In this document: positions 9,315-41,572 of the stretch, one piece after another
Numbering within the stretch: position 1 is the stretch's first letter
How the letters are laid out: each line of letters opens with the position of its first letter
NCBI GenBank assembly: GCA_030528155.1
Contig: JAUMZL010000018.1
Coordinates: 1 to 41,897 of the forward strand
Length of the DNA stretch: 41,897 nt
Source: Aerococcus sp.
GTDB taxonomy: Bacteria > Bacillota > Bacilli > Lactobacillales > Aerococcaceae
Direction: 5' to 3'
Made by a program: the position numbers and the translations under genes
Notes under the pieces: generated by a model
The model's database searches: none
Told to the model about the DNA's origin: nothing
What the model saw: only the letters and a program-made list of their open reading frames with translations

Positions 9315-9353
9315 TCATTAGGACCTGATGATAAAGAGAAAGGAGCCATCAGT

Positions 9354-10007
9354 ATGCGCCAAGGGATTGATTCCAAAGCGTTATATCAATTGCTACGCCA
9401 ACGTCATCCCGTTGATGGACATTGGCCAGCAGACACGCCCTTTGAGATGATCTTAGGCGCCTTTCTCGTTCAGAACACTACCTGGACTAATACGGAAAAG
9501 TCGCTTGCCCGCTTGCGGGAAGCCACAGCGTTCGATCCAAAGAAAATTGCGCAATTGGATAAGGAGACGCTGATTAGGTTAATCTATTCCAGTGGCTTTC
9601 ATCAGAACAAATCACAACTTATTCATGCCTTTTTTACGTGGCTAGTGAAGTACGATAGTGACGTAATGGTGATTAAACAAGCCTTTGGATCGATGAAGGC
9701 TTTGCGAGAGCATTTGCTTAGCTTCCGTGGCATTGGGCCGGAGACAGCCGATGTATTGTTACTGTATGCCTTCGATGAGCCCGTATTCATTGCTGATCGC
9801 TATGCTCAGAAGCTCTACCAAACACTAGATGCTCCCAGTGCTGGTGGTTACGATGAATTGAAACAATTTGTGGAAGCTACAACCACACTCACCGTTCCGG
9901 AGTGGCAGCAGTTCCATATCCAGATTCTTGATTACGGTAAAGCCTACCTCAAAGGAAAACCGCCTTATCAGGAACCGTTGAGTAAGGACTACTATCTGTT
10001 GAGCTAG
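9354..10007 (+). CDS. HhH-GPD DNA glycosylase, MagIII-like (no Fe-S cluster)
   Basis: A 217-residue base-excision-repair glycosylase of the endonuclease III superfamily. The helix-hairpin-helix reads FRGIGPETAD (about 124-133), followed by the catalytic Asp in FIADRYAQ (about 147). The Lys that gives endonuclease III its lyase activity is Glu here, and there is no cysteine in the whole protein, so the C-terminal [4Fe-4S] loop is absent. Both features, plus the N-terminal LGAFLVQNTTW block and the FHIQILDYGK stretch, match Helicobacter MagIII, a monofunctional 3-methyladenine glycosylase. Removal of alkylated purines is inferred. AGAAAGGAG precedes the start. Confidence 0.75.
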   Translation: MRQGIDSKALYQLLRQRHPVDGHWPADTPFEMILGAFLVQNTTWTNTEKSLARLREATAFDPKKIAQLDKETLIRLIYSSGFHQNKSQLIHAFFTWLVKYDSDVMVIKQAFGSMKALREHLLSFRGIGPETADVLLLYAFDEPVFIADRYAQKLYQTLDAPSAGGYDELKQFVEATTTLTVPEWQQFHIQILDYGKAYLKGKPPYQEPLSKDYYLLS

Positions 10008-10097
10008 AGCGTAGCCTCATTTTTAAGTTAAAGTATGTAAAAAAATCTACAGCATGCAAAAATAAGCACCACGAATAGGTTGCCGTGCATTTTGGTC

Positions 10098-10126
10098 TTG
10101 CATTTAGCTAATAAAAAGAATAGATT
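10098..10126 (+). promoter_or_regulatory. Candidate kup promoter
   Basis: TTGCAT (10098-10103), 17 bases, TAGATT (10121-10126). RNA would start near 10133, giving a leader of about 135 bases that contains the hairpin at 10148-10181. Confidence 0.5.
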
Positions 10127-10147
10127 ATTTTCATGTGATCGTATTAA

Positions 10148-10190
10148 CGCGGACTCAGTGCCAGAGCGGTGCAGAGTCCCGTTTTTATTT
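10148..10190 (+). terminator. Hairpin plus T tract in the kup leader (terminator or attenuator)
   Basis: GGACTC (10151-10156) pairs with GAGTCC (10174-10179), extended by outer G-C pairs, and is followed by TTTTTATTTT. It either ends the glycosylase transcript or, because the promoter candidate lies before it, acts as a conditional terminator in the kup leader. Confidence 0.55.
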
Positions 10191-10266
10191 TGCCTGGGAA
10201 GTGAATGTCTTTTGGACGAGAAAAGCTTTTTGGGTCAAACAAATAAGGAAGGGAAGACCTACAGCT

Positions 10267-12261: not shown

Positions 12262-12398
12262 GAGCCTACTGCCGCTGATTCGCATTTTTCACACTGAAAG
12301 CGGATAATTATTATAAGAACTCCTTTTCTGTTATGATAAAGAAAGAATAACGAATAAAAATAATCAGTTGTTAGAAATAATGAGAGGAGTTTTTCGAT

Positions 12399-12704
12399 AT
12401 GGCCTACAGTCAAGAAGATATTGTCAAAGAAGGCAAAGCGTTTGTAATCAAAGATGATCATGGTGAACGTTTAGCTGAAATTACCTGGATGGTGCCAGAA
12501 TCCACTAATGAAGTGATTATTGCTAACCACACGTGGGTGGACGATTCTCTGCGCAATCAAGGCATTGCGGGGATGCTGTTGGATCGAATGGTACAAGAAG
12601 CAGACCAAGCAGGACAGAAGATCAAAGCCCTCTGTCCTTATGTGGTACGGCGCTTCAAAGAAGAACCAGAGAAATTTGATTTCATTAATTATGATAAACA
12701 ATAA
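12399..12704 (+). CDS. GNAT-like N-acetyltransferase domain protein (YjdJ/NATD1 type)
   Basis: A 101-residue protein of the small GCN5-like group (Pfam Acetyltransf_CG). Features are the HTWVDDSLRNQGIAGMLLD motif (Q/R-x-x-G-x-A acetyl-CoA loop) and the KALCPYVVRRF end block with its conserved Cys. Proteins of this type bind acetyl-CoA, but their substrates are unknown. GAGAGGAG sits well before the ATG. A TATGAT (12332-12337) may be its -10. It stands alone, ended by its own terminator. Confidence 0.82.
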   Translation: MAYSQEDIVKEGKAFVIKDDHGERLAEITWMVPESTNEVIIANHTWVDDSLRNQGIAGMLLDRMVQEADQAGQKIKALCPYVVRRFKEEPEKFDFINYDKQ

Positions 12705-12727
12705 TGTTCAAAAAGTTTGTGATAAAG

Positions 12728-12772
12728 CAAGTGACCGCAGTTCAGGTAGAGCGTGTGGTCACTTGTTTTTTT
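12728..12772 (+). terminator. Intrinsic terminator after the GNAT gene
   Basis: CAAGTGACC (12728-12736) pairs perfectly with GGTCACTTG (12757-12765), then seven T. Confidence 0.92.
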
Positions 12773-13004
12773 AATAACGAGACCCTTATAAACTAAGGGG
12801 TCTAGCGCAAAGACCTCCGTTATAGTGGTGAGGAACATCGGATTTCAGATAGAAAAAGAATGGTCATATTAAAATAGAGGAATTATATTACCAAAGCGTA
12901 TTACTTTACTTATCAAATGTAATCTTGATAGACTGATATCAAGTTAAAGAAATTTCTTGAACAGTTGGTTGTTTTTAGTATTTTTAAGAAATGGAGGCGA
13001 AGGA
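12773..13004 (+). promoter_or_regulatory. Upstream region of the alkaline-shock operon with a palindrome
   Basis: No gene in this stretch. It holds a perfect inverted repeat, CTTGATA-6 bases-TATCAAG (12924-12943), about 60 bases before amaP, and just before it an ATTAC/GTAAT pair. A -10 like TAGACT (12929-12934) overlaps the palindrome. This looks like an operator over the promoter; the binding protein is unknown. Confidence 0.45.
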
Positions 13005-13577
13005 ATGGGAGGATTTAGACGGTTGGTGCGTATCATCTGGACCATAGTGGCGTTCTTAGCTGTTGGAATAGCGATCGTCGCCTTTTATCCATTTGGTGCT
13101 TTATCAACATTCGTTTGGAACCATGTCTTGGTAAATAGCTCCCTTATTTTAGCCGAAGTTATTGTCCTTGGTGTTTTATTGTGCGGGATCGTGGTGGCTT
13201 TTGTCCATGGGCTGTTAGCGCCGTCTGCTCGCAATGATTTGACGCTGAAAAATGGACGTGGCACATTAACCATTTCCAAAGAGGCTGTGGCCTCAGCGGC
13301 AGCGAAAGCTACACGGCGTTTCAGCAGCGTAGTGGATGAGGAAGTGGTTGTCAGAATGTATCAGCAACCTGAAAAGACGCAGGTCTCTGTGACTGCCTAT
13401 ACAGAGGATGCGAATGATCAACCAGGTCTCGGCGAACGCATTCAAGAGACTGTTCAAAAGACGGTGGATCGTACCCTCGGTGTTACGGTGGAACAGGTCA
13501 ATGTCACGATGAAACAAGCTGACGTTCGCCCTCAACCACAACCTAAACTTCGTCGTAAGCAACCACGGGTAAAATAG
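13005..13577 (+). CDS. amaP: Alkaline shock response membrane anchor protein AmaP
   Basis: A 190-residue protein with two N-terminal membrane helices (about 9-30 and 45-68) and a cytoplasmic domain of about 110 residues, ending in a basic Pro/Gln/Arg-rich tail. In staphylococci, AmaP tethers Asp23 to the membrane. The cytoplasmic part (GRGTLTISKEAV onwards) resembles the Asp23 fold. The ATG at 13005 follows GGAGGCGAAGGA; an ATG at 12957 would add 16 residues without a site. It heads the operon amaP-DUF2273-asp23. Confidence 0.88.
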   Translation: MGGFRRLVRIIWTIVAFLAVGIAIVAFYPFGALSTFVWNHVLVNSSLILAEVIVLGVLLCGIVVAFVHGLLAPSARNDLTLKNGRGTLTISKEAVASAAAKATRRFSSVVDEEVVVRMYQQPEKTQVSVTAYTEDANDQPGLGERIQETVQKTVDRTLGVTVEQVNVTMKQADVRPQPQPKLRRKQPRVK

Positions 13578-28023: not shown

Positions 28024-28899
28024 CTACCCAATCACGTCATAGCCTCCGCGCTCTTGACGGTTGGATCCAAAATATTCTGCCATGGCCTGTTCAGTCTTTT
28101 CCCAAATGGCTTGGTCGCCATCCTCAGTGAGGCAGGCTTTGAAGAAAGCAGCTTCGCGGTAGGAGGCATGGTAAGGAACATGATGGCCGCCAGCAGGACT
28201 GCTGATGAAATGCAGATATTCGCCGTAGCTCTGCGTGGCATTTGCATCAAAAAATGCCCGATCAATTTCGTAAGGGACGATAGGGTCATCCATCGCATGC
28301 CAGAGTAGGAACGGACGATTGGCTAAGCGTTCGGGATGGCTGGAGAGGTCAACAGCATCTAATTGCGGAAGCAGTTCTTCTAGCATTTTTGCCATCGACT
28401 CATCGATTCCCTGAGCCAGAGCCTCTTCAGGGTTTTCCAGTGCCATTTGATAAAACCATTTAGAAAAGTTGACGATAGAAGTTGCCCCCTCCAGTGAAGA
28501 AGCGGCGCTAATTTCAGGATAGGTGGCCAGTAGCATACTGGTTGTGATGCCTCCCATCGATAGTCCGGAAACACCGATGAAATCATTCAGCAGTCCACGT
28601 TCGCGATATCCAGCGACAATGAGTGGAAATTCAGCCACATTATGTTGTAATGCTTCGAAGAAAATGAGTGGTGAGGGCATCACGTCAGGGGAGGTGCGGA
28701 CACCGTGGCCATAGCTCACTGGCACCACCACGCGGAAACCTTGTTTAACGAATTCTAATGCTTGGGTGGCACACTGTTCTGGGACACACTCCCAGCCGTG
28801 GTAGAAAAACACCAGTGGTACAGCATCGTTAAGCTGGTCTGTGGGTGCATATTCCATCACTGGTAGTTGATTAATCATTAATTCTCTAATTGTATACAT
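28024..28899 (-). CDS. Alpha/beta hydrolase (YitV-like esterase)
   Basis: A 291-residue serine hydrolase of the prolyl-oligopeptidase-like group. The oxyanion segment is FFYHGW (31-36). The nucleophile is S114 in GLSMGG, the acid is D204 or D205 in AMDDPIVPY, and the base is H239 or H240 in AGGHHVPY. It resembles Bacillus YitV-type esterases and probably acts on small acyl esters in the cytosol. Monocistronic: it converges on the terminator at 27966-28006, and the dha operon terminator lies upstream. Confidence 0.86.
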   Translation of the reverse strand: MYTIRELMINQLPVMEYAPTDQLNDAVPLVFFYHGWECVPEQCATQALEFVKQGFRVVVPVSYGHGVRTSPDVMPSPLIFFEALQHNVAEFPLIVAGYRERGLLNDFIGVSGLSMGGITTSMLLATYPEISAASSLEGATSIVNFSKWFYQMALENPEEALAQGIDESMAKMLEELLPQLDAVDLSSHPERLANRPFLLWHAMDDPIVPYEIDRAFFDANATQSYGEYLHFISSPAGGHHVPYHASYREAAFFKACLTEDGDQAIWEKTEQAMAEYFGSNRQERGGYDVIG

Positions 28900-29160: not shown

Positions 29161-29736
29161 TTAATGAAGGTGTTTAATCAGCGTCAAGAAGAGATAGCGA
29201 CTGGATTCTGCACCGGGATCTTTTTCACCGATGGAACGCTCACCGTAGTAGGAAGCACGCCCCTTTTCTGCTTTCATCGCAATGATCTTTTCATCGGCTT
29301 CATCTAAAACGGCTTCGGTTAGGTTATCTGAGGTCAAAGCGGCGATCGCTGGTTCCCACATATCGACCATCGTTTTCTCTCCGGCCGTTGATTTGCCGAG
29401 GGTCTTTACTTTTTCCACGCCGGCTTGGAGGGCCTCAGTAAGAGACTGTCCAGCGGTGAATGCTTGAGACATCGCAAGAAAAGCGGAACCATACAGGGGG
29501 CCGCTCGCACCCCCCACTTTGCTCATAAACGCCATGGCAATCAGTTTCATCAGCTCCGCGTCACTAGCCGCTTGTTTGTCAGCAATACTTTCTTTGGCAG
29601 CAGCAGCGCCGCGTGCCATATTGTTACCATGATCGCCGTCACCAATCTTTTGATCGAGATCACTGAGGTAAGCTTTTTGTTGATCAAGTTGATCAAACCA
29701 ATCGTTAAACCAGTTGTAGAGATTCATTGTCGTCAT
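29161..29736 (-). CDS. dhaL: Dihydroxyacetone kinase, ADP-binding subunit DhaL
   Basis: A 191-residue subunit holding a tightly bound Mg-ADP that is rephosphorylated by DhaM and passes phosphate to dihydroxyacetone on DhaK. The nucleotide/Mg site DQKIGDGDHGNNM is at about 27-39; the GGASGPLYG loop lies at about 75-83. The C-terminus carries DPGAESS. AAAGGAA precedes the start. It is last in the dhaM-dhaK-dhaL operon, 21 bases after dhaK. Confidence 0.95.
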   Translation of the reverse strand: MTTMNLYNWFNDWFDQLDQQKAYLSDLDQKIGDGDHGNNMARGAAAAKESIADKQAASDAELMKLIAMAFMSKVGGASGPLYGSAFLAMSQAFTAGQSLTEALQAGVEKVKTLGKSTAGEKTMVDMWEPAIAALTSDNLTEAVLDEADEKIIAMKAEKGRASYYGERSIGEKDPGAESSRYLFLTLIKHLH

Positions 29737-29757
29737 AAGTATTCCTTTCTTTATTCA

Positions 29758-30747
29758 TTACCAAGCAATGGTGGTTACGGGGGCTTTGAGGGCGGCTGTC
29801 CATTCATTGTCCGTTAAATGCAACATAGTGAGGGAAGCACCAGCCATATCAATACTGGTCATCCATTCTGCTACGCGAATAAAATCAACAGTAATGCCTT
29901 CTTTTTCGAGGAGGTCATGAATGTCATTCCAGAAGAGATATAATTCCATCTGTGGGGTAGCACCCATGCCATTCACGAGAACGGCGTAGTGATCTCCAGC
30001 TTGCCATTGAAATTCAGCTTTTAATTGCTGAATTAGTTCTTCCGCCATGTCGTGCGCAGGCACCATCTTTTCGCGTTTGTACCCCGGTTCCCCATGAATA
30101 CCGATACCAAATTCAAACTCATCATCGCCAATGGAAAACCCTGGTTTACCAACCTCTGGGACCGTGGCGGCACTGAGCGCGAGACCGATCGTTTTGAGGT
30201 TTGTCATGACAGCTTCTGCAATGGTTTTGAGTTCTTGAACGGATTTGCCAATGCGAGCATAGTAGCCGAGGATCTTGTGCATGAAGATAGTACCCGCAAT
30301 GCCCCGGCGTTTATCTTTGTTTTCCAGTGGTTCAATGGCAATATCATCACCAACAATAATATGATCGACCTCAATGCCTTCCATTTGGGCCATTTCTTCG
30401 GCTAATTGGAAATTAATCACATCTCCCGAATAATTTTTAACGATCAGGAATACGCCTCGGCCACGATTTGATGCTTCGATGGCCGCGAGAATTTGATCAG
30501 GAGTTGGAGAGGTGAACACTTCACCGGCAACGGCTACCGACAGCATGCCATCCCCGACAAAACCAGCGTGCGCGGGCTCATGTCCCGAGCCCCCACCGCT
30601 GACAAGACCAACAATTTCTTTGGTATCGTTTTTGCGATGAATGGCATTCGTTTGATCGAGCCGCTCGAGGAGATCATTGTGGGCAAGGATGAGCCCAGAT
30701 ACCATTTCATCGACCACTTGACTAGGATTATTAATGAGTTTCTTCAT
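29758..30747 (-). CDS. dhaK: Dihydroxyacetone kinase, substrate-binding subunit DhaK
   Basis: A 329-residue subunit that binds dihydroxyacetone covalently. The active-site residues fall at the same positions as in E. coli: H56 in GGSGHEP and H218 in GIGIHGEPG, the latter forming the hemiaminal. Its AGGAGG lies in the last codons of dhaM, three bases upstream, so translation is tightly coupled. Confidence 0.97.
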   Translation of the reverse strand: MKKLINNPSQVVDEMVSGLILAHNDLLERLDQTNAIHRKNDTKEIVGLVSGGGSGHEPAHAGFVGDGMLSVAVAGEVFTSPTPDQILAAIEASNRGRGVFLIVKNYSGDVINFQLAEEMAQMEGIEVDHIIVGDDIAIEPLENKDKRRGIAGTIFMHKILGYYARIGKSVQELKTIAEAVMTNLKTIGLALSAATVPEVGKPGFSIGDDEFEFGIGIHGEPGYKREKMVPAHDMAEELIQQLKAEFQWQAGDHYAVLVNGMGATPQMELYLFWNDIHDLLEKEGITVDFIRVAEWMTSIDMAGASLTMLHLTDNEWTAALKAPVTTIAW

Positions 30748-30750
30748 ATT

Positions 30751-31140
30751 TTAAGCCTCCTTCACGGCTGCAATGACTTGCTCGGGCGTAGCAGCAATTG
30801 AGCATTGCACGCTGGCAACATACGCGCCTTCTACGAGGGGCGCATCGCTGAGAATTTCAAATTTTTCTTGTTCATTTTCAGCGAGAAAACTGAGTGCTGT
30901 TTCAGCAGACATGACAGCACTGCCCATATCAGTGAACACATAGATATAGTCTGCTGCCGTTGCTTCTTGATAAGCATTGAGGACCGTCATCGGTGTGGTA
31001 CCGATAGCCCCCGTGTCATCCCCACCTGCTGAGAAAACGGCAAGGGTGTCAGGATCAAAAGAGACCATCGTATCGATCAATTCTTTTAATCCATCTGTAA
31101 TGGCCTTACTGTGTGAAATAAGGATAATCGCATTTTTCAT
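30751..31140 (-). CDS. dhaM: PTS-dependent dihydroxyacetone kinase phosphotransferase subunit DhaM
   Basis: A 129-residue single-domain EIIA-Man-like protein; phosphate from HPr goes to H10 (ISHS) and then to DhaL-ADP. The longer E. coli type with fused HPr and EI domains is not seen, which is normal in Firmicutes. GGAAGGCTTAC lies upstream of the start. First gene of the operon dhaM-dhaK-dhaL; many relatives have the order K-L-M instead. Confidence 0.94.
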   Translation of the reverse strand: MKNAIILISHSKAITDGLKELIDTMVSFDPDTLAVFSAGGDDTGAIGTTPMTVLNAYQEATAADYIYVFTDMGSAVMSAETALSFLAENEQEKFEILSDAPLVEGAYVASVQCSIAATPEQVIAAVKEA

Positions 31141-31195
31141 TGCTGTAAGCCTTCCTTCTAAATCCCTCTGTGAGAGAGTGCGATTCGCTAAGTTT

Positions 31196-31204
31196 ATTAT
31201 ACCA
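31196..31204 (-). promoter_or_regulatory. Extended -10 promoter of dhaMKL
   Basis: On the minus strand TGG-TATAAT is a consensus extended -10, about 55 bases before dhaM; the -35 region is poor. Confidence 0.7.
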
Positions 31205-31209
31205 AGGGC

Positions 31210-31234
31210 GAAAGCGAAGGGGAAACGCTTTCTT
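31210..31234 (-). promoter_or_regulatory. cre site and inverted repeat over the dhaMKL promoter
   Basis: AAGAAAGCGTTTCCC on the minus strand (31220-31234) fits the catabolite-response consensus except at two edge positions and covers the -35 area. It forms one side of a perfect inverted repeat, GAAAGCG-9-CGCTTTC (31210-31232). CcpA control of dihydroxyacetone use is inferred. Confidence 0.65.
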
Positions 31235-31242
31235 GTAGAAAT

Positions 31243-31278
31243 AAGAAAGGCACGCCCACAGCCACTATGGACGTGCCC
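31243..31278 (-). terminator. Terminator between gldA and dhaM
   Basis: GGCACGTCC and GGGCGTGCC pair on the minus strand, then TTTCTTATTT. It makes gldA a separate unit from dhaMKL, or allows partial read-through. Confidence 0.8.
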
Positions 31279-31292
31279 AAAAAGGCGAAAGC

Positions 31293-32396
31293 TTACGATG
31301 CGTGGTAAGCGGTAGTCACATATTTATTAACGGCAATCAGAGCTTCCGCCACAGCTTCTGGTGTCACCGTGAATGGCATTTCGCTCATAGTTTCTTCAGG
31401 GATGGTGGCTTGTTGGCCTACCTTTAAGAGATCATCATAACTGGCATCTCCCAAGCCTAGATCTGCCAGAGTGGTTGGCAAATTGAGGGCTTGATAGAAG
31501 GCGATGTAGCGGTCAATTTCTTCTTTTGGTCGGTTTTCCAAGAAGAGTTCGCTCAACACGCCGTAAGCGACTTTTTCACCATGGCCTTTGCCGTGGATAG
31601 GGCCATCAAGAGCTGTAAAGCCATCGTGAATCGCATGCGCTGCGGCGAGGCCACTACTCTCGAATCCCAGCCCACTCATCAAGGTGTTCGCTTCAACGAC
31701 GGCTTCTAACGCTGGAGTCACGACATGTGCTTCATTGGCAGCCACCGCTTGGATTCCATATTCAAAGATGGTTTCCATACACTGCTTGGCGATCGCTTGC
31801 GCTGCTAGTGGGCTATTCCCCCCTAGCATGTTCTTGTTGTACCCTTCAGCAACGGCCCGCGCTTCAATATAGGTTGCTGAAGCGTCACCGATACCAAATG
31901 CGAGGAATTTCGCTGGGGCGTTAGCAACCACTTGCGTATCGACAATCACGAGATCAGGGTTCTTGTCATAGAAGCGATATTTCTCAAAGTTCCCCGCGTC
32001 AGTATAAATCACTGACAAGGCTGAAGTTGGGGCGTCCGTTGAAGCAAGGGTTGGGGCAATGGCGACGGGAAGTGTCAGTTCATCTGCTACAGCCTTAGCC
32101 GTATCGCTAGTTTTACCCCCACCAAGTCCGATAATTAAGTCAGCGTGGTGTTTTTCCGCAACCGCTTTAATACGGAGGATTTCCCTATCAGAAGCTTCGC
32201 CGTTGAAGGCCTCCCGCTGTACGGCTAGTCCCGCTTCTTTGAGGGCTTTATAGAAGTCTTCACCTACAATCTCCCATACATCATCATCGGTAATGAGCAG
32301 TGGAGTGCTCCCTAAAGCTTGGAAATATTTAGTCCCAGTGAGGAGAATATTTTTCCCTTGAACATAATGTGATGGACTTCCGAATACACGTTCCAT
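31293..32396 (-). CDS. gldA: Glycerol dehydrogenase
   Basis: A 367-residue NAD-dependent, Zn-containing enzyme that oxidises glycerol to dihydroxyacetone, the substrate of DhaKLM. The NAD loop GLGGGKTSD is at about 91-99. Zn ligands are expected in GIGDAS (Asp, about 169), in the AAAHAIHDG block (His, about 252) and in GKGHGEK (His, about 269). TAGGAGG is the ribosome binding site. Placed directly upstream of dhaMKL, it completes oxidative glycerol dissimilation, although no glycerol facilitator gene is present. Confidence 0.95.
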   Translation of the reverse strand: MERVFGSPSHYVQGKNILLTGTKYFQALGSTPLLITDDDVWEIVGEDFYKALKEAGLAVQREAFNGEASDREILRIKAVAEKHHADLIIGLGGGKTSDTAKAVADELTLPVAIAPTLASTDAPTSALSVIYTDAGNFEKYRFYDKNPDLVIVDTQVVANAPAKFLAFGIGDASATYIEARAVAEGYNKNMLGGNSPLAAQAIAKQCMETIFEYGIQAVAANEAHVVTPALEAVVEANTLMSGLGFESSGLAAAHAIHDGFTALDGPIHGKGHGEKVAYGVLSELFLENRPKEEIDRYIAFYQALNLPTTLADLGLGDASYDDLLKVGQQATIPEETMSEMPFTVTPEAVAEALIAVNKYVTTAYHAS

Positions 32397-32988: not shown

Positions 32989-33912
32989 CTAATCCTCCCA
33001 GAGTACATCAGTGTCAGGTAAGGTGTAGTGCTGACGGACAAAATGAACGAAGGTATTTACGATGGGAAGATTAAAGCGGCTCTCTGTATAAGCCATGTAG
33101 AATAAGCGCTGCTCATACACGTCATGTAATGGGATGAGCGTGACGTCATAAGTCTCGATGTTAGTGAATTTCGGCATGATCGTGATGCCAAATCCCTGTT
33201 CCACCAAACCCATGATCGTATCATCCTCACTCGCTTCGTAGGTGACGTGTGGGACAATGTGATGTTCTCTAAACAATTGGTCAATGTTGTCGCGCAACCC
33301 CGTATTCTTAATGAAATGGACAAAAGGATAGTTCTCCACGACATTGAGCGCAGCGGTAGATTGTTTGGCAAGCGGATGTTGATCAGGCACGGCAAGGTAG
33401 AATTCTTGGGCAAATACAGGAACAAAAATCACATTTTCAGGAGCATCTTGAAGCTTTGAACAAAAGGCAACATCGATTTCATTGCGTTCCAGCGATTCTA
33501 GCATGTCAGGTGTGAGTCCAGAAGCGTGATTGAAGAAAAATTGCACATCTTGTTCGGCGTCAGGTTGTTCGACGAGAAAACGCCGGCATAGGCTAGGGAC
33601 AAAAGATTTGCCGAGTTCACGCAAGGTGGCAACGCGGATGGGGCCTTTGCCTTCTCCCAACAATTGGATGTCTCTAACTTCATCATCGAGGAGTTCGAGA
33701 ATCAATTCTACTCGTTTGAGGAAGAGCGTCCCAACCCGTGTCAGCTGAATGTTTCGGCCGGAGCGTTCAAATAATGGGGCGCCAAGCTCTTCTTCGAGTT
33801 TTTGGATAGCATTGCTCAGTGTCGGTTGGGTGATTCGTAATTTACGGGCAGCCTGGGTGTAATGTTCATATTTTGCCAGCGTAGCAAAATAACGCAAATG
33901 ATAGAGATTCAT
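32989..33912 (-). CDS. LysR-family regulator of the quinate/shikimate-type operon
   Basis: A 307-residue LysR-type regulator. The winged helix-turn-helix is at about 1-60 (HYTQAARKLRITQPTLSNAIQKLEEELG), followed by a linker helix and an effector-binding domain (about 90-300). It is transcribed away from the three-domain reductase operon with 242 bases between the starts, the usual LysR layout, so it most likely controls that operon. The effector is inferred to be a pathway compound such as quinate, shikimate or dehydroshikimate. TCAGGAGG is its ribosome binding site. Confidence 0.88.
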   Translation of the reverse strand: MNLYHLRYFATLAKYEHYTQAARKLRITQPTLSNAIQKLEEELGAPLFERSGRNIQLTRVGTLFLKRVELILELLDDEVRDIQLLGEGKGPIRVATLRELGKSFVPSLCRRFLVEQPDAEQDVQFFFNHASGLTPDMLESLERNEIDVAFCSKLQDAPENVIFVPVFAQEFYLAVPDQHPLAKQSTAALNVVENYPFVHFIKNTGLRDNIDQLFREHHIVPHVTYEASEDDTIMGLVEQGFGITIMPKFTNIETYDVTLIPLHDVYEQRLFYMAYTESRFNLPIVNTFVHFVRQHYTLPDTDVLWED

Positions 33913-33939
33913 GGCAGTCCTCCTGAGTGGGTAAGTGGG

Positions 33940-33950
33940 ATTGTGAAATA
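33940..33950. promoter_or_regulatory. ATTGTGAAATA element in the LysR/operon divergent region
   Basis: An 11-base word that recurs exactly, inverted, at 40137-40147 before the downstream transporter, and shares GTGAAAT with the palindrome at 33984-34003. Confidence 0.45.
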
Positions 33951-33983
33951 ACCGGTAAAAACTTACTTAACATAGAATAATAA

Positions 33984-34003
33984 TTATGTGAAATTTCACG
34001 TAA
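33984..34003. promoter_or_regulatory. Palindromic putative LysR operator
   Basis: A perfect 12-base core, GTGAAATTTCAC (33988-33999), extends to TTA-x-...-x-TAA, so 18 of 20 positions are symmetric. It contains a T-N11-A arrangement. If the -10 is TATAGA at 34051, the palindrome centre lies near -68, the usual LysR activation site. Confidence 0.6.
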
Positions 34004-34050
34004 AAAAACATCTGTATGCGGTTTTTGTAACCCCAATCATAAAATATTTC

Positions 34051-34103
34051 TATAGATTACACAAATAATAGTGATTAGATTTTTGGATTGATGTGCTATT
34101 AAA
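34051..34103 (+). promoter_or_regulatory. Alternative promoters of the reductase operon
   Basis: Two candidates. TATAGA at 34051-34056 without a -35 is well placed for LysR activation. TTAGAT (34075-34080), 17 bases, then TGC-TATTAA (34098-34103) is an extended -10 type. The sequence cannot decide between them. Confidence 0.4.
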
Positions 34104-34154
34104 TAAAGGCAAGTGAAGAACTAAACAAGATATAAAGTGAAAGGGACGAATAAA

Positions 34155-37049
34155 TTGGATAAACGCTTATTTGAAGCGGTTCAGTTGCCTAACGGTGTGG
34201 CATTGAAGAACCGTTTAGTAATGACCCCGATGACAACAGAGTCAGGGTATTACGATGGAAAATTCCCTAAAGAACTCGTTGACTACTATGCTGAACGTGC
34301 TGGTGAGGCAAGTATGGTGATTGTTGAGAGTGCATTTGTGGAAGATAATGGCCGTGGTTTTGCGGGGGCAATCGGTGTTGATAAAGATGACAAGATCCCT
34401 GGCTTGAAAAAATTAGCGACAGCCATTCAAGAAAAAGGATCTAAAGCACTACTGCAGCTCTATCATGCTGGACGGATGGCGTGGCCGAATATCAACGGGG
34501 GCCTGACACCAATTGCACCAAGTCCGGTACCGGCGTTGCGTCCGAATGCACCAGTACCGCGGGAAATGTCCGCCGATGAAATTGACGACATGATTAAGAA
34601 ATTTGGGGACGCTGCTAGACGTGCGATCGAAGCAGGCTTCGATGGGGTAGATATTCACGGGGCCAATACGTTCCTACTGCAACAATTTTTCTCCCCTCAC
34701 TCTAACCGTCGAACGGATCAATGGGGTGGTACTCGTGAAAAACGCGCGACCTTCCCGGTAGCTGTTTTACGGGAAGTACAACGGGTAGCAAAAGAAATGG
34801 GCCGAGATGACTTCATTATTGGATACCGCTTCTCGCCAGAAGAGTTGGAAGAACCAGGGATCCGTTTTGAAGATACCATGTTCCTCTTGAACACCTTAGC
34901 CGAAGAACATCCTGATTATGTCTTCTTCTCCATGGGCAGTTACGATCGTCCTTCCATTGTGAATACGGATGATCCAGAGCCAACGATCCGCAAGTACCAT
35001 GCTTTGGCTTCTAAAACATTGAAGACGATTCCAGTAATGGGAGTTGGTCGAATTTTGCAACCGGCCGATGCGACAGCGGCGTTAGACATGGGGTATACCC
35101 TGCTAGCTGCTGGGAAGGCATTCTTGTTAGCACCAGACTGGGTAAGCCAGATCAAACAGGAGGCGACCTTGCCAGATTATGTGGACACGCACAAACAAGA
35201 AGCGTTGAAGATTCCAGCGCCATTGTGGGACTTCATTGACTACATGCGCGTTGATCCAGACGAAGAGATGGCACGTAAACAACGGTTGCAGAAGATTCAA
35301 GAAGAAGGCGCGCATTACACGCCAGGTTCCTACAATGTCATTGCTAAAGGGCATATCAGTGACTTACCGATGACCGTTACCTTCAGCGCTGACCGTATTG
35401 AAGCGATTGATGTGGATCAGAGCGGTGAATCGGAAGGGTTATCCGACCAAGTGTTTGAACGGATGCCAAAACAGATCATCGAAGGCCAAACGTTGAACGT
35501 GGATGCCGTCTCCGGAGCTTCTGCTTCTAGTCAAGGATTGATTGACGGAGTGAGTGAAGCCGTTATGCAGGCTGCAGACGCGGATACCGTTGAATTTCTG
35601 AAACGCCAACCAAAACCAGTAATGCAATGGTCGAAGCAGGTCATTGATGAAAACTTTGACGTGGCCGTTATCGGTGGTGGGGCTGCCGGAATCAGTGCAG
35701 CTTTACGTGCGGATGAATTAGGCTTGAAGACCGTCCTCATTGAAAAGCTTAGCTTCCTGGGAGGATGCATTTCCATCAGTGGTGGGAATCAGGTCGTTAT
35801 GGGGTCTAAGCTCCAACAACAAGCCGGTGTCACTAACGATACGGTTAAAGCGATGGTGGAAGACTTCCAGAAGAATGGGAACTACGAAAATAATGTCGAA
35901 TTATTGACGCTCCTTGCTGAAAACATTGGTCAAACAACGGATTGGTTACATGAATATGTTGGCGTAAACTACGATGAAAAACTGCACGTCTTGGCAGAGT
36001 ACCGTTATGATCGTGAATTAGCCTACGAAGGTGGTGGGCATGGCTTTGCGGCAGCTGCGCGTCAGGCCATGGACAACAGCAACGTGACCGTGTACTACCA
36101 AACGGCTGTGGACCATCTCGTTACTGACAATGGTCAAGTTAGTGGGTTAGTGGCTAAAGAAGCGACGGGTGAAACCCACAATATCCAAACAAAAGGAGTT
36201 ATCTTAGCGACCGGTGGGTTTGGACATAACAAGGATCTCTTACCAGAAGCCTTACGTCCCGTGCTCTACTACGGGCCAACCTCATCCAATGGGGAAGGGT
36301 TAATCGTTGCACAGAAAGATGTCAACGCAGCAACCACTAATATGCAATTTGGAAAGATCTATCCAAATGGGATCGAAGCAGCAAATGGTATCGCTAAATC
36401 CACGATTGACGGAAACTTACGTGTCTTGAAAGATAACGCCTTGTTAGTCAATATGGACGGGAAACGTGTGATTAATGAACGGGCATCGAACCATGAAATT
36501 CTCGATGTCTTGATGAAACAAGAGCAACCTTTACTGTTCTTACTGATGGATCAGCAAGCCTTCGATAACTTCCGCGAAGGGGTATTAGAAGGCGGAATCG
36601 CTGGAACAGATATTGATCGTTGGTTACAAAACAACGGCTCCCAAACGCCACTCTTCTATCATTCTAACGACTTGGTAGAGTTGGCAGAGCGTGCGGGCAT
36701 GCCGAGTGACTCATTAAAAGAAACGGTGGCGCGCTTCAATCACTTTGTAGAAACGAAGGAAGATACTGATTTCCATCGCCAACCAGAATACTTAGAACGG
36801 CAAGTGGCTGAAGGCACATACTACTTAGTGGAACAAAAACCGCGTTTCGCAACGACGATGGGTGGTTTGGTTGTCGACACACAATTACAAGTGCAAAATG
36901 CTGATGATCAAGCCGTTAGCGGCCTCTACGCTGCCGGTGAAGTTGTCGGTGGAGTCATGGGAACAGACTCCCCATCCGGTGCTAACAACGCTTGGGCTTT
37001 GACTTCCGGTAAATTAGCCGCTGAAGCGATTGCCAACCAAAATAAATAG
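34155..37049 (+). CDS. Three-domain NADH-dependent enoate reductase (OYE-like / FMN_bind / FAD_binding_2)
   Basis: A 964-residue cytosolic flavoenzyme. TTG at 34155 is chosen since AAAGGGA lies eight bases before it; GTG 34137 has no site. Residues 1-365 are an Old Yellow Enzyme-like barrel (HGANTF keeps the His/Asn pair but has Phe for the proton-donor Tyr). Residues about 385-470 are an FMN_bind domain with DAVSGAS near 450-456, an ApbE-type covalent-flavin site with Ser. From about 490, FDVAVIGGGAAG opens a fumarate reductase/KSTD-like FAD domain. The same layout occurs in Vibrio NADH:acrylate and cinnamate reductases: NADH enters the first domain, a carboxylated alkene is reduced in the third. 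With ydiB and aroD beside it, shikimate or dehydroshikimate is the inferred acceptor. Confidence 0.8.
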   Translation: MDKRLFEAVQLPNGVALKNRLVMTPMTTESGYYDGKFPKELVDYYAERAGEASMVIVESAFVEDNGRGFAGAIGVDKDDKIPGLKKLATAIQEKGSKALLQLYHAGRMAWPNINGGLTPIAPSPVPALRPNAPVPREMSADEIDDMIKKFGDAARRAIEAGFDGVDIHGANTFLLQQFFSPHSNRRTDQWGGTREKRATFPVAVLREVQRVAKEMGRDDFIIGYRFSPEELEEPGIRFEDTMFLLNTLAEEHPDYVFFSMGSYDRPSIVNTDDPEPTIRKYHALASKTLKTIPVMGVGRILQPADATAALDMGYTLLAAGKAFLLAPDWVSQIKQEATLPDYVDTHKQEALKIPAPLWDFIDYMRVDPDEEMARKQRLQKIQEEGAHYTPGSYNVIAKGHISDLPMTVTFSADRIEAIDVDQSGESEGLSDQVFERMPKQIIEGQTLNVDAVSGASASSQGLIDGVSEAVMQAADADTVEFLKRQPKPVMQWSKQVIDENFDVAVIGGGAAGISAALRADELGLKTVLIEKLSFLGGCISISGGNQVVMGSKLQQQAGVTNDTVKAMVEDFQKNGNYENNVELLTLLAENIGQTTDWLHEYVGVNYDEKLHVLAEYRYDRELAYEGGGHGFAAAARQAMDNSNVTVYYQTAVDHLVTDNGQVSGLVAKEATGETHNIQTKGVILATGGFGHNKDLLPEALRPVLYYGPTSSNGEGLIVAQKDVNAATTNMQFGKIYPNGIEAANGIAKSTIDGNLRVLKDNALLVNMDGKRVINERASNHEILDVLMKQEQPLLFLLMDQQAFDNFREGVLEGGIAGTDIDRWLQNNGSQTPLFYHSNDLVELAERAGMPSDSLKETVARFNHFVETKEDTDFHRQPEYLERQVAEGTYYLVEQKPRFATTMGGLVVDTQLQVQNADDQAVSGLYAAGEVVGGVMGTDSPSGANNAWALTSGKLAAEAIANQNK

Positions 37050-37058
37050 TTAAGAAAC

Positions 37059-37120
37059 TGCTCCACCCCAAAGCTGATGATTAGTTTTGGGGGGCGAGCA
37101 AGAAGTCGCACTGAAGCGAC
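37059..37120 (+). other. Intercistronic hairpins between the reductase gene and ydiB
   Basis: A strong stem, TGCTC-CA-CCCCAAA with TTTTGGGG-GGC-GAGCA (37059-37072 and 37085-37100), has no T run after it. A second, GTCGC/GCGAC (37105-37120), follows. They probably limit RNA decay or read-through within the operon, giving unequal expression. Confidence 0.6.
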
Positions 37121-37159
37121 AATTTAATTAGTTAAAAAATATAATGGAGGAAGATTATC

Positions 37160-38044
37160 ATGGCAGAACGTTTAGATGGACACACATTATTGATTAGCTT
37201 ATTGGCAACCCCAATTCGTCACAGCAAGTCACCAACGATGCACAACGAAGCTTTCGCAAAATTGGGCTTGCCTTATGCTTACCTCGCCTTTGAAGTGGGC
37301 AATGAAGAACTCCCACAAGCTGTTGAAGGGATCCGGGCATTGGGAATTCGTGGGTCTAACATCTCTATGCCAAACAAACAAAAAGTTATTCCATTGTTGG
37401 ATGAACTCTCCGAAGAAGCTGAATTGATTGGTGCGGTGAATACCGTGACGAACAAGGATGGTAAAGGGCATCTCGTTGGTTACAACACAGATGGGATTGG
37501 CTGTATGAATGCGTTGAAGGAAAACGATGTGAACGTCAAAGGTGAAATCATCACCATGGCTGGTTGCGGTGGTGCTGGGACAGCCATTGCAGTTCAAGCA
37601 GCATTGGAAGGGGTCAAAGAATTACGCATCTTCAATCGTGATGATGACATTTATGCGAATGCAGAAAAGACCGTTGAAAAAATCAATGCCAAAACCAACT
37701 GCAAAGCGAGCGTTCATCACTTGGAAGACGATGAAGCCTTCAAACAATCAATCGCTGAATCCAGCATCTACATTGACGCGACCAGCGTAGGGATGCACCC
37801 ATTGGAAGATCAAAAATTGATTGACGATCCAGCGGTTATCCGCGATGATTTAGTGGTCTTCGATGTGGTTTATGCCCCAGCTGAAACCAAATTGTTAGCT
37901 TTTGCGAAAGAACACGGCGCTAAAAAAGCGATCAATGGGTTACCAATGATGATTCATCAAGGGGCAGCAGCCTTCAAGCTCTTCTGCGGTGAAGACATGC
38001 CAATCGACTACATCCGCGACTTGCTCTACAACAACGAAAAGTAA
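37160..38044 (+). CDS. ydiB: Quinate/shikimate dehydrogenase (YdiB-like AroE paralogue)
   Basis: A 294-residue shikimate dehydrogenase-family enzyme, oxidising quinate to 3-dehydroquinate and shikimate to 3-dehydroshikimate, reversibly. The substrate site is seen in S22 and S24 (HSKSP), K73 (SMPNK), N94 and D111 (YNTDG). The nucleotide loop GCGGAG is followed by FNRDDD, which lacks the NRT-x-x-R that marks NADPH-specific AroE and matches E. coli YdiB, which uses NAD or NADP. The C-terminal half also follows YdiB. Catabolic use is inferred from its operon. GGAGGAAG precedes the start. Confidence 0.85.
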
Positions 38045-38070
38045 GCGGTGAATGAGGAGGAAAAACAAAA

Positions 38071-39300
38071 ATGACGTCAAATCGTTACTTCCCCACGAGT
38101 TTAGCCCTGTACATTAACTATATCATTCATGGAATGGGGGTATTGATTATCTCCCAAAACCAGAATTATTTGATGGAACAGTGGCACACCAATCTAGCCG
38201 GAGTGTTATCTGTTGTCGGTTTCATCGGGATCGGGCGCTTAATTGCGATTATTATTTCCGGCCCACTTTCCGATAAATTTGGTCGGAAGCCTTTTGTATA
38301 CTTGGGAATGCTGACCTATGTGATCTATTTCCTCGGTTTGGTTTTCAGCCATAGTGTCTTGATGGCTTCGATTTTTGCTTTGATTGCAGGATTATCCAAC
38401 TCCTTCCTCGATTCCGGAACCTATCCGGCACTGATGGAAGCTTGGCCAAAACAAGCAGGGACGGCGAATGTCTTGATCAAAGCCTTCGTTCAAATTGGGC
38501 AATTTGTATTGCCATTACTCATTGGTTTGTTGACCACGACCGGATTGTGGTTCGGGTGGTCCTTCATGGTGGCAGCCATCGTCTTAGTGATTAATATGCT
38601 GATCATGTGGCGGATGCCATTCCCAGATGACGATGCCCGTTCTCAAGCAGAAGCGAGCGGTCAATCCGAGGAGGAAGCAGTGGTTGATAACGGAATTCGT
38701 TACAAACAACAACCAAAACTCTACTTAGAAGGGGTTGCTTTCGTTCTTTATGGGTTTATCTCACAGGCAACGTTCTACCTGATCCAACAATCATTGAATA
38801 CGTACGGCCAACAAGCAGCCGGCATGAGTTTAAACGATGCCAATCTATTGATCACTTACTACTCTGTAGGGGCATTAGCCTGTGTAGCCGTGACTGCCGT
38901 GATCGCAACGAAAGTGAAATCTACGCACCTCATGCTCGGTTACACCTTCATGTCCTTCCTCAGTGCGATGGGAATGGCAATGTTCCCGGTGAGCGCCATG
39001 CTGAAAATTGGTGCCGTATTGATTGGGTTCTTTGCTGCTGGTGGAGTCATGCAATTAGGGCTCACGATCATGGGAGAATTCTTCCCTAAAGGCAAAGGAA
39101 CCGTCACCAGCATCTTCTACACTTTTGGGTCACTGGCATCCTGGACGATTCCAAATGCCATTGGTTGGTTTATGGAAAACCATGGGATTCATTCCGTCAT
39201 GTGGTTCGAAACGGTACTGGCGGCGATTGGATTTGTAATTGCGATCATCGTCTTTATCCGTTATGAACAGGTAATTGATACCAGCCAACGCGAAGCATAG
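38071..39300 (+). CDS. MFS transporter, probable quinate/shikimate importer
   Basis: A 409-residue major facilitator protein with 12 predicted helices and a charged central loop (about 190-220, rich in Glu, Gln and Ser). The loop 2-3 signature reads GPLSDKFGRKP (about 64-74). It starts 26 bases after ydiB with TGAGGAGGAAA. Being inside the operon between the dehydrogenase and dehydratase genes, it most likely imports the pathway substrate or exchanges substrate for reduced product; the family alone does not fix the substrate. Confidence 0.82.
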   Translation: MTSNRYFPTSLALYINYIIHGMGVLIISQNQNYLMEQWHTNLAGVLSVVGFIGIGRLIAIIISGPLSDKFGRKPFVYLGMLTYVIYFLGLVFSHSVLMASIFALIAGLSNSFLDSGTYPALMEAWPKQAGTANVLIKAFVQIGQFVLPLLIGLLTTTGLWFGWSFMVAAIVLVINMLIMWRMPFPDDDARSQAEASGQSEEEAVVDNGIRYKQQPKLYLEGVAFVLYGFISQATFYLIQQSLNTYGQQAAGMSLNDANLLITYYSVGALACVAVTAVIATKVKSTHLMLGYTFMSFLSAMGMAMFPVSAMLKIGAVLIGFFAAGGVMQLGLTIMGEFFPKGKGTVTSIFYTFGSLASWTIPNAIGWFMENHGIHSVMWFETVLAAIGFVIAIIVFIRYEQVIDTSQREA

Positions 39301-39315
39301 AAGGAGCGAATACAG

Positions 39316-40071
39316 ATGAAAACAGTAACGATTGATGAGATGACCATTGGAGCAGGTAAACCAAAAGTCATCATTCCAGTGGTTGGTCAAAATGAAGCAG
39401 AAATTTTAGCGAAAGCCAAAGAAGCCCACGATCTCGGTTGTGACTTCATCGAATGGCGCATCGATTTCTTTGAAGAGGTATTAGTTCCAGGAGCGGTTGC
39501 CGTGCTTTCTAAAAAGGTGAAAGCTGAAAGTCACTTGCCACTCTTGATCACCTTCCGCAGCCAACGTGAAGGGGGCGAACGGGAGCTGGATGATGCCGGT
39601 TATCTCAAACTCTATCAAGATGTTCTCGCCAATGGGACGCTCGACTTGATCGATGTGGAATTATTCATGCCTGCTGAAAATGTAGAGGCACTGGTCAATC
39701 TCGCCCACCAACAAGGGGTCAAAGTCATCATGTGCAACCATGATTTCGATGCGACGCCAGCGCAACAAGAAATTGTTAAGCGCCTGACCATGATGGAAGA
39801 AAAAGGGGCAGATATTGCGAAAATCGCGGTGATGCCGAATAGTGCTAAAGACGTGCTGACCTTGTTGGCAGCAACGGAAGAACGTCATGCACAAGCGGAT
39901 ATTCCATTGATTACGATGTCTATGGGGCAGCTCGGAATGGTTTCGCGTTTGTGTGGAGAAGTCTTCGGATCTTCAGCATCGTTTGGGGCTGCTGGGCAAG
40001 GCTCTGCACCAGGACAAGCGCCAGTTGGCCAATTGCAGGATGTTTTATCGCTCCTCTCATTGAATAAATAA
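39316..40071 (+). CDS. aroD: Type I 3-dehydroquinate dehydratase
   Basis: A 251-residue class I enzyme that converts 3-dehydroquinate to 3-dehydroshikimate through a Schiff base. K169 (IAKIAVMP) is the imine lysine and H142 (CNHDF) the general base; E46 and R48 (EWRID), R81 (TFRS) and the SAPGQ loop near the C-terminus bind substrate. Length is normal. GAAGGAG precedes the start, 15 bases after the MFS gene. No other shikimate-pathway genes accompany it, so it works here with YdiB in a catabolic or reductive route rather than aromatic synthesis. Confidence 0.95.
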   Translation: MKTVTIDEMTIGAGKPKVIIPVVGQNEAEILAKAKEAHDLGCDFIEWRIDFFEEVLVPGAVAVLSKKVKAESHLPLLITFRSQREGGERELDDAGYLKLYQDVLANGTLDLIDVELFMPAENVEALVNLAHQQGVKVIMCNHDFDATPAQQEIVKRLTMMEEKGADIAKIAVMPNSAKDVLTLLAATEERHAQADIPLITMSMGQLGMVSRLCGEVFGSSASFGAAGQGSAPGQAPVGQLQDVLSLLSLNK

Positions 40072-40086
40072 TTGTCGAAACGAAGT

Positions 40087-40120
40087 GCGGTGTTGCAGCG
40101 AAGTAACGCCGCCTTTTTTT
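40087..40120 (+). terminator. Terminator of the quinate/shikimate-type operon
   Basis: GCGGTGTT (40087-40094 region) pairs with AACGCCGC, then seven T. Confidence 0.88.
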
Positions 40121-40213: not shown

Positions 40214-41572
40214 ATGAAACCAAAAGCTGCACAGGAAACACCTTATCTACCGCTGGGGCCGTTTAAATTGCGCTTGCCATTTATTCATTATCGCTTGGAA
40301 AAAGTAGAATTTATTCAGGGATTGATTATTGGGGCGACCGCCTTGAGTATGATGTATTACATTATGGACTACATTGGACTCAGTGAAGAATTGGCGTACA
40401 GTGTGGTTATCTTTGAGGTGATGCTCTACTTGCTGCATGGGTTGCTTGGTGACCCCGTAGTACCTGGATGGATAACGGCAGCTTTACCATTAGTTTTGGG
40501 GTATCTGGACGGCTTTCAACCGGGTGTGGAGCGGGTACATGCCATGATGGCGCTCCAATTGTTGGTAGCCGGGATCTTTTTATTCATGGGAATGACAGGG
40601 CTAGCACGCCGCTTCGTCCATTTGGTGCCTAACGCCTTGAAGGGGGCGATCCTGATGGCAGCCCCGGTATCGGTGTTGAATCAACAGCTCAAAGCAGATG
40701 GGACATTACACACACATCCTTTTTCATTGATCATTGGCTTCTTATTTTTAGTCATCATCATGTACTCGACGTTCTATCAGAAATGGCGCAAGCAAAGTCG
40801 CCTTCTCGATCTGATTGGGCAATATGGCAACCTCTTTCCCTACTTATTGGCGATGCTCGTCGGTGTACTCGTGGGTGAACTCGCAGCCCCGGCATTGACG
40901 TTGGGGACACTGATTAAGATTCCAGACTGGAGTGGTGTCATTCACCAGGTCAGTGTGTTCGCTATCGGCGTGCCATCCTTGAACTTATTTATCCAAGCAA
41001 TTCCGCTCGCCTTCATGATTTACATTATTGCTTTTGGAGATTTTATTACCGCAAAGTCCTTAGTCAAAGACGCTATGGCAGAACGTCAGGACGAAAGTAT
41101 TGATTTTGATGAAAATCGTTCGAACCTGATTAGTGGGATTAGGAACTTACTTTTAGGCTTATTGATGCCATTTCCACCATTCGCAGGGCCGTTATGGGCA
41201 GGCATTATGGTGTCGACCACGCAACGCTACAAAGAAGGCAAACAAGCCATGCAGACACTGTTCGGCGGGCTAGTATCATTTCGGATTGGAACATTGCTCT
41301 GTGTATTGCTTGTGCCAATTTCCAGTTTCATGCAGCCAGTATTCAGCGTGGCGGGGGCCATCACGCTGCTCTTCCAGGGGATTGTTAGCGGGCGGATCGG
41401 GATCGATTACTGCCACAACGATCTGGATCGTTTGATTGCACCATTTACTGCCGTCATCATTGCTTTAGCAGGAGCTGGCTGGGGATTACTCGCCGGAATC
41501 ACGCTCCATGTTTTATTGGGGAACTTTTCCGCACGAACGGGTCAGGCTGAAACAGACGAAAGATCGCTGTAG
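40214..41572 (+). CDS. SulP/NCS2-like permease of unknown substrate
   Basis: A 452-residue membrane protein with about 12 hydrophobic segments. The block GDFITAKSLVKDAM, then IDFDENRSNLISGIRNLL (about 275-315), resembles the central region of SulP and nucleobase-cation symporter 2 carriers, where an acidic/Asn helix faces the substrate. I do not recognise the subfamily, and no STAS domain is present at the C-terminus. GAAGGAGATGTC precedes the ATG. It follows the aroD terminator with its own promoter. Substrate could be an organic anion of the neighbouring pathway; sulfate, molybdate or nucleobase is not excluded. Confidence 0.65.
   Translation: MKPKAAQETPYLPLGPFKLRLPFIHYRLEKVEFIQGLIIGATALSMMYYIMDYIGLSEELAYSVVIFEVMLYLLHGLLGDPVVPGWITAALPLVLGYLDGFQPGVERVHAMMALQLLVAGIFLFMGMTGLARRFVHLVPNALKGAILMAAPVSVLNQQLKADGTLHTHPFSLIIGFLFLVIIMYSTFYQKWRKQSRLLDLIGQYGNLFPYLLAMLVGVLVGELAAPALTLGTLIKIPDWSGVIHQVSVFAIGVPSLNLFIQAIPLAFMIYIIAFGDFITAKSLVKDAMAERQDESIDFDENRSNLISGIRNLLLGLLMPFPPFAGPLWAGIMVSTTQRYKEGKQAMQTLFGGLVSFRIGTLLCVLLVPISSFMQPVFSVAGAITLLFQGIVSGRIGIDYCHNDLDRLIAPFTAVIIALAGAGWGLLAGITLHVLLGNFSARTGQAETDERSL

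Follow-up and report, generated by a model that had tools for sequence, protein, structure and literature searches.

The window analysed here, that is, the whole stretch of 41,897 nucleotides, belongs to a draft Aerococcus genome of 1.67 Mb that is 95.5% complete, and carries an operon that was examined as a candidate module for the reductive use of quinate or shikimate. The original prediction had placed over positions 33913..40071 a LysR gene divergent from genes for a three-domain flavoenzyme, a YdiB-like dehydrogenase, a transporter of the major facilitator superfamily (MFS) and the dehydratase AroD, closed by a terminator. This layout was borne out by open reading frame (ORF) calls, Pfam, NCBIfam and a hairpin scan, with the LysR gene ending just outside that range. 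The features are the following:

32989..33912, minus strand: LysR-family regulator, divergent from the operon (Pfam HTH_1 and LysR_substrate, NCBIfam)
33913..34136, no strand: divergent intergenic/control region of 224 bp between the LysR and flavoenzyme genes
34137..37049, plus strand: flavoenzyme of 970 aa, OYE-FMN_bind-FAD_binding_2, GTG start (ORF call, Pfam)
37160..38044, plus strand: YdiB-like dehydrogenase of 294 aa (Pfam Shikimate_dh_N and SDH_C; NF001313)
38071..39300, plus strand: MFS transporter of 409 aa, presumed quinate/shikimate carrier (Pfam MFS_1, NCBIfam)
39316..40071, plus strand: AroD, type I 3-dehydroquinate dehydratase of 251 aa (Pfam DHquinase_I; TIGR01093)
40087..40112, plus strand: terminator-like hairpin, 10 pairs and then a U-rich stretch (hairpin scan)

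The genes look real, because an Aerococcus sp. metagenome-assembled genome (locus L037) keeps the flavoenzyme, YdiB and AroD genes in identical order, with 85, 94, and 77% identity, respectively. No MFS gene lies between them in that genome, where the nearest one (35% identical) was found past AroD on the opposite strand; a 70% relative of the window transporter is present in the cluster of another genome, G091. The start of the flavoenzyme is uncertain, with an in-frame TTG at 34155 as an alternative to the GTG at 34137, and the lone hairpin is weak evidence for a terminator, because the region contains 17 terminator-like sites against 12.0 +/- 3.6 in shuffled sequence.

The YdiB-like protein scored 436.7 bits against the NCBIfam model NF001313 (cut-off 431), fell below the cut-off of the narrower quinate/shikimate model NF009390 (291.2 versus 349), and carries K73 in a PNK motif and D111 in an NTDG motif, which we take to be the catalytic pair. 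AroD scored 238.6 bits against TIGR01093 (cut-off 139.3) and showed an HDF motif at 142 (H142) and a KIAVMP motif at 169 (K169), presumably containing the catalytic residues. By family model and Lys/Asp motifs, the former is predicted to be a YdiB-type quinate/shikimate dehydrogenase and, by family model and His/Lys motifs, the latter a type I 3-dehydroquinate dehydratase.

A search for chorismate synthase was negative in the window's own genome and positive in 14 of 14 control genomes, and the sole genome-wide match to Shikimate_dh_N was the window YdiB gene, with no second shikimate dehydrogenase found. The claim that aromatic-biosynthesis genes are missing was thus extended to the whole genome for these two families (other aro families were not searched), and the absence of chorismate synthase from a genome of this completeness is strong evidence, if not absolute. 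Since neither chorismate synthase nor another shikimate dehydrogenase was found, the YdiB-AroD pair is unlikely to be biosynthetic, and an orphan pair of this kind points to a catabolic or redox use; aromatic biosynthesis or salvage in this genome is largely refuted on the same two grounds. Salvage of quinate or shikimate for aromatic amino acids, with the reductase as an incidental neighbour, would fit the YdiB-AroD pairs without a reductase seen in six genomes of genus g44, with a carrier adjoining the pair in both of those examined gene by gene, but it seems very improbable here, given the missing chorismate synthase and a reductase that regularly adjoins YdiB.

This regularity was observed in a search of the order and the phylum with NF001313, from which 35 YdiB-centred loci were read (locus L110 gave no YdiB ORF and was excluded from all counts). 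The loci showed a recurring, somewhat variable order of LysR, ene-reductase, YdiB, in some cases MFS, and AroD, in which the slot beside YdiB was occupied by reductases of several kinds. Type A combines OYE with Pyr_redox_2 (BaiCD-like, 640-780 aa); type B is an FMN_bind-FAD protein of ~575 aa, as in the Ligilactobacillus salivarius megaplasmid pMP118; type C is an FMN_bind-FAD-FMN_red protein of 767 aa with ApbE in the operon; type D is the window type; and type E is an FMN_bind-FAD protein belonging to the window clade. Across 295 genomes of the order, 59 YdiB-family genes scored over the cut-off, at least 44 of them with an ene-reductase within 500 bp and at least another five with one 3.0-8.1 kb away, whereas 10 had none among the matches listed. 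These 10 correspond to two aromatic-biosynthesis loci (L089 and L095), a second copy in G033, of the same genus as these loci, one gene with only a carrier adjoining (G200), and the six g44 genomes mentioned above.

In the reverse direction, all 38 type A genes (E <= 1e-180, four candidates scored per genome), from 8 genera, had a YdiB-family gene no more than 351 bp away. In a genus-sampled set, in which g44 is represented by its one genome with a reductase, YdiB genes with AroD near and no aroA, aroB, aroK, or pheA near showed a reductase within 5 kb in 21 of 22 cases and within 200 bp in 17, the background density being 2 reductases per 193 kb of ORF (ORFs at least 5 kb away). The ene-reductase is therefore supported as a regular member of putative quinate/shikimate modules, and this recurrence, together with the genome without detected chorismate synthase, sustains the assignment of the window operon to such a module in the original prediction. 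Several clusters also contain genes for a short-chain dehydrogenase/reductase (SDR) and a xylose-isomerase-like TIM-barrel protein, which may carry out later pathway steps; the window operon has neither.

Relatives of the flavoenzyme itself were searched in the same 295 genomes, and the figures refer to the matches listed. Full-length relatives of ~60% identity were found in three genomes of one other family, with AroD directly adjoining in each, and a version without OYE was found within YdiB/MFS/AroD clusters of G091 (same genus) and G289 (same family). The neighbourhoods of homologues had been proposed as a check, on the expectation that they would mostly keep ydiB or aroD; they do so in seven of the 10 window-clade members seen, and three do not. 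The enzyme is present at E <= 1e-100 in 3 of 15 genomes of the window's genus, a phylum-wide search for close relatives (up to three candidates scored per genome) returned only the window itself among 398 genomes, and a search for the vinylphenol-reductase family gave a match in one of 98 genomes.

The Pfam domains of the flavoenzyme (Oxidored_FMN at aa 11-342, FMN_bind at 408-476, and FAD_binding_2 at 508-945) are the three, in the right order, of the OYE-FMN_bind-FAD_binding_2 NADH:2-enoate oxidoreductases. The FMN_bind domain includes a match to the flavinylation motif D-x-x-[S/T]-G-A-[S/T], as this is given in a section of PMC12052999, and the window genome has two ApbE genes, so that a covalent flavin mononucleotide (FMN) site and the means to fill it are both predicted. 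The relevant parts of the protein are located as follows:

34137..35291, plus strand: OYE domain (aa 1-385), putative module for NADH-to-FMN input (Pfam, alignment)
35502..35522, plus strand: flavinylation motif DAVSGAS (aa 456-462) within FMN_bind (motif match)
36360..36362, plus strand: Y742, aligned with Fcc3 H365, candidate acid or hydrogen-bond donor
36489..36491, plus strand: N785, aligned with the catalytic Arg (Fcc3 R402, UrdA R411)
36849..36851, plus strand: A905, at the position of Fcc3 H504 (alignment)
36969..36971, plus strand: S945, at the position of Fcc3 R544 (alignment)

The flavin adenine dinucleotide (FAD) domains were aligned to Shewanella Fcc3, with 41 rows in the final alignment. 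The catalytic Arg (R402 in Fcc3, R411 in UrdA) is described in a section of PMC10882135 as an essential proton donor, strictly conserved in Fcc3s and UrdAs. The R402/H504/R544 set was retained in 12 of the 41 rows, namely Fcc3, an enzyme encoded separately in the window genome (contig C6), the three-domain enzymes of Rahnella and Pantoea, three HcrB-like proteins, and five other flavoproteins. In contrast, it was lost in all 25 rows of two groups from quinate clusters, with Asn at the R402 position in the window group (10 rows) and Tyr in the lactobacillus group (15 rows), Ala or Cys for H504, Ser (Pro once) for R544, and Tyr for H365. Both groups share the motifs K-x-YP[NH]G-x-E and RF[AC]T[TS][ML]GG, with slight variation in a few rows, and in a tree from which the active-site columns were omitted, one clade with support of 100/99 united the window group (10 rows) with the lactobacillus group (12 rows), against 11 other rows.

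Loss of these residues argues against a use in fumarate or HcrB-like reduction. A fumarate/urocanate reductase was rejected as a candidate on Asn785, Ala905, and Ser945 at the positions of Fcc3 R402, H504, and R544. It is extremely improbable that the protein is just another enzyme of that kind lying beside quinate genes: the FAD domain does have Fcc3 and UrdA as its best sequence relatives in the PDB, but it has Asn in place of the essential Arg and Tyr, Ala, and Ser in place of H365, H504, and R544, and the enzyme with canonical fumarate-reductase residues is encoded elsewhere, on contig C6. An HcrB-like cinnamate reductase was rejected as well, since the three proteins classed as HcrB-like on gene order and domains all retain the set that the window enzyme lacks.

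A use of chlorogenate, in which the flavoenzyme would reduce the hydroxycinnamate freed from caffeoylquinate while YdiB and AroD process the quinate, is unlikely. Quinate accompanies caffeate in plants, a similar alpha/beta-hydrolase-like gene is present in three clusters of family f4 (by Pfam on that of locus L039), and the window has an esterase-like gene at 28024-28899, below the model cut-off. The window operon itself lacks a hydrolase, however, and other reductases occupy the slot in clusters where no adjoining hydrolase was labelled (the query for hydrolases being that of f4 alone). The residues kept by HcrB-like cinnamate reductases are lost across the window clade, although cinnamate reductases can be of another kind, the Weissella FarA/B being unrelated to Hcr according to a section of PMC13101492.

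The opposite direction of catalysis was considered too, with the flavoenzyme as a 3-ketosteroid dehydrogenase (KSTD)-like protein that would oxidise a hydroaromatic compound, for instance to catechol or protocatechuate, and pass the electrons to NAD or oxygen. Matches to 3-ketosteroid and 4-oxocyclohexanecarboxylate dehydrogenases exist at the superfamily level, but they are far below the cut-off, and the NADH-side fusions (OYE, FMN_red) and the exchange with BaiCD-like ene-reductases indicate reduction, so that this direction seems quite improbable.

The original prediction had also drawn on known enzymes of the same layout, of which the soluble NADH:fumarate oxidoreductase of the Klebsiella type is one. 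The window enzyme cannot be equated with these. The Rahnella and Pantoea look-alikes share with the window enzyme the three domains, the flavinylation motif and an OYE domain of 55-56% identity, but their FAD domain is only 25-26% identical and keeps the canonical fumarate residues, and they lie in a fumarate setting, next to fumA, genes for an anion carrier and ApbE, and dcuR together with a sensor kinase. Architecture was consequently discarded as a guide to substrate, as site and neighbours differ under a shared layout. Because of the disparity between the two domains, the OYE part looks like an exchangeable NADH-input module. Its HGANTY-motif Tyr, catalytic in classical OYEs, is replaced by Phe at aa 179 of the window enzyme and in four of five quinate-cluster three-domain enzymes, and is Tyr in the 31 other aligned OYE sequences. 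Separately, OYE-FMN_bind proteins without a FAD domain were noticed at ~6600-13400 of loci L046-L048 and L050, near a gene that looks ApbE-like by eye and near an FMN_bind-like protein (a weak blast match in L047 and L048); these possibly feed NADH electrons into membrane or secreted flavoproteins.

Taken together, we consider it probable that the operon is a reductive quinate/shikimate module with a ring-reducing flavoenzyme. The MFS carrier would import quinate or shikimate, and NAD-linked YdiB and AroD would interconvert quinate, 3-dehydroquinate, 3-dehydroshikimate, and shikimate. In the cytosolic flavoenzyme, electrons from NADH would enter via the OYE domain and pass to the covalent FMN of FMN_bind, attached by an ApbE encoded elsewhere, and then to FAD, whose domain would saturate the ring double bond; 3-dehydroshikimate is the most likely substrate, shikimate the alternative. 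The data directly show the genes, the conserved neighbourhoods, the clade, the lost residues of fumarate and HcrB-like reductases, and the missing chorismate synthase, whereas the substrate and product of the flavoenzyme, its electron donor and path, the direction of catalysis, the cofactor preference, what the carrier transports, and the physiology are inferred.

Active site and ring chemistry both favour 3-dehydroshikimate as the acceptor, with shikimate as a possible one. In 3-dehydroshikimate the C3 ketone and the carboxylate are both conjugated with C1=C2; being a cyclic enone, this compound accepts hydride more readily than shikimate does. Its binding could do without an Arg clamp, in keeping with the lost residues, and Y742 is the candidate acid. 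Quinate oxidation yields one NADH and enone reduction consumes one, so these two steps alone are redox-neutral. The proposal that quinate oxidation supplies the NADH of the reductase and thereby makes an electron sink consequently had to be amended: a net sink requires that the remaining ketone be reduced too, which YdiB or an SDR would do, or that shikimate be reduced directly, and would then amount to one NADH per quinate or shikimate.

A number of observations weigh against this reading. YdiB-AroD pairs without a reductase were found in six of the seven g44 genomes and in one Aerococcus (L101). Where AroD and aromatic genes are both missing from the neighbourhood of YdiB, a reductase lies within 5 kb in only 3 of 8 cases, and where YdiB is near aromatic-synthesis genes in 5 of 12, all five in L107 and L108, where the quinate cluster abuts aro genes. 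Three window-clade members, those of Raoultibacter timonensis, G002, and G207 (loci L038, L043, and L044, the first from Raoultibacter), lie away from quinate genes, with no YdiB or AroD in the 8-10 kb examined to either side. Among the lactobacillus enzymes, L103 has YdiB and no AroD nearby, and L111 and L112 have no quinate genes nearby (L112 on a contig of 8.4 kb). The two groups join in the FAD tree where long branches meet, and the tree tool warns that the join may be false. Residue loss does not name the substrate, let alone prove it, because the same set is missing from two VprA proteins and from two others whose domain order led to the label Par-like, and losing both carboxylate-binding Arg is odd for a carboxylated-ring substrate. 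Finally, the AlphaFold model of the flavoenzyme, built on a 3-row alignment, had a mean predicted local distance difference test score (pLDDT) of 41.3. The Raoultibacter relative (L038, 9749-12737) is lipoprotein-like, has a window-type active site, lies beside a gene that looks ApbE-like by eye, and may be an extracytosolic respiratory version.

The net chemistry proposed for the window operon would be the same as that which Whiting and Coggins reportedly described in the 1970s, in which lactobacilli including L. plantarum convert quinate and shikimate into hydrogenated cyclohexanecarboxylates; among open-licence PMC articles, judged by title and the opening of the abstract, no paper was found on this gene module or tying a gene to the activity. 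Of the 12 lactobacillus-group rows in the tree, eight are adjoined by YdiB and AroD (two of them nearly the same sequence), and these lactobacillus enzymes differ from the window enzyme in having no OYE input domain. Genus g63 (21 genomes) has the type C enzyme in 18 genomes, a type B-sized one in G275, and neither in G695 and G702; the type C neighbourhoods contained ApbE, AroD, and YdiB in all 15 examined, and two further loci showed AroD and YdiB (L080, L081), the first also with ApbE. A decayed quinate cluster was seen in L113 (9150-13766), where a lactobacillus-group flavoenzyme lies beside ORFs that resemble transposases by eye and beside incomplete genes for LysR and AroD.

Two g63 loci (L169 and L170) present a LysR gene, a gene for a 210-aa FMN_red protein, an HcrB-like gene of 820-830 aa, and a small gene. 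Because this order resembles that of L. plantarum, listed by locus tag as hcrR ... hcrB, hcrC in a figure legend of PMC10295242, g63 is probably, not surely, Lactiplantibacillus; the LysR gene is divergent in both loci, unlike hcrR, which a passage of the text of PMC10295242 places downstream of hcrB. A genus with L. plantarum-like hcrA/hcrB has a quinate cluster whose FAD enzyme shares the window clade. L. plantarum HcrB, compared through the three HcrB-like proteins, is like the window enzyme in its FMN_bind and FAD_binding_2 domains, its NADH-side flavin domain, and the adjoining LysR gene, but keeps R402/H504/R544 and is not adjoined by YdiB or AroD.

Two other systems share part of the gene set. 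BaiCD/2-enoate-reductase-like operons of Listeria innocua and of a Klebsiella plasmid record cluster LysR, a flavin oxidoreductase, a YdiB-type shikimate dehydrogenase, and AroD as the window does, but their reductase is OYE plus Pyr_redox_2 (relatives in L076 and L106), not FMN_bind/FAD_binding_2. The E. coli K-12 cluster ydiN-ydiB-aroD-ydiF-ydiO, followed by divergent ydiP, ydiQRST, and fadK, has the same MFS/ydiB/aroD core, but continues with coenzyme A (CoA)-transferase, acyl-CoA-dehydrogenase-like, and electron-transfer flavoprotein genes instead of a flavin ene-reductase; as a speculation by analogy, it might be a CoA-ester-dependent reductive counterpart. In locus L075 (3072-16678) it reads ydiMN-ydiB-aroD-ydiFO-QRST-fadK.

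Other genes of the window were also recorded:

40214..41572, plus strand: NCS2/SulP/MOT1-like permease of 452 aa (label by eye), past the terminator (sub-threshold MFS_MOT1 match only)
29161-32396, minus strand: DhaM/DhaK/DhaL-like and GldA-like glycerol dehydrogenase genes adjoining the LysR gene, a second redox-linked fermentation cluster (by eye)
2560-3750 and 4316-5626, plus strand: tandem similar membrane proteins, NupC-like by eye, likely a duplication

No family model matched the permease over threshold; a 64% relative is located within the G289 quinate cluster, and the protein is possibly associated with the quinate module.

In conclusion, and tentatively, we propose a widespread, so far unnamed reductive quinate/shikimate pathway of fermenting bacteria, with a conserved LysR/YdiB/AroD/MFS core to which ring reductases would have been recruited several times from unrelated flavoenzymes, and in which the window enzyme would represent a new FAD subfamily with an arginine-free site reducing 3-dehydroshikimate. 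The gene set is defined in a Lactiplantibacillus-like genus, in a Ligilactobacillus salivarius megaplasmid, and in Aerococcus. If this is true, the way in which abundant plant acids act as an electron sink, both in fermented plants and in the gut, would be explained, and a flavoenzyme subfamily now annotated as "FAD-dependent oxidoreductase" would be defined.

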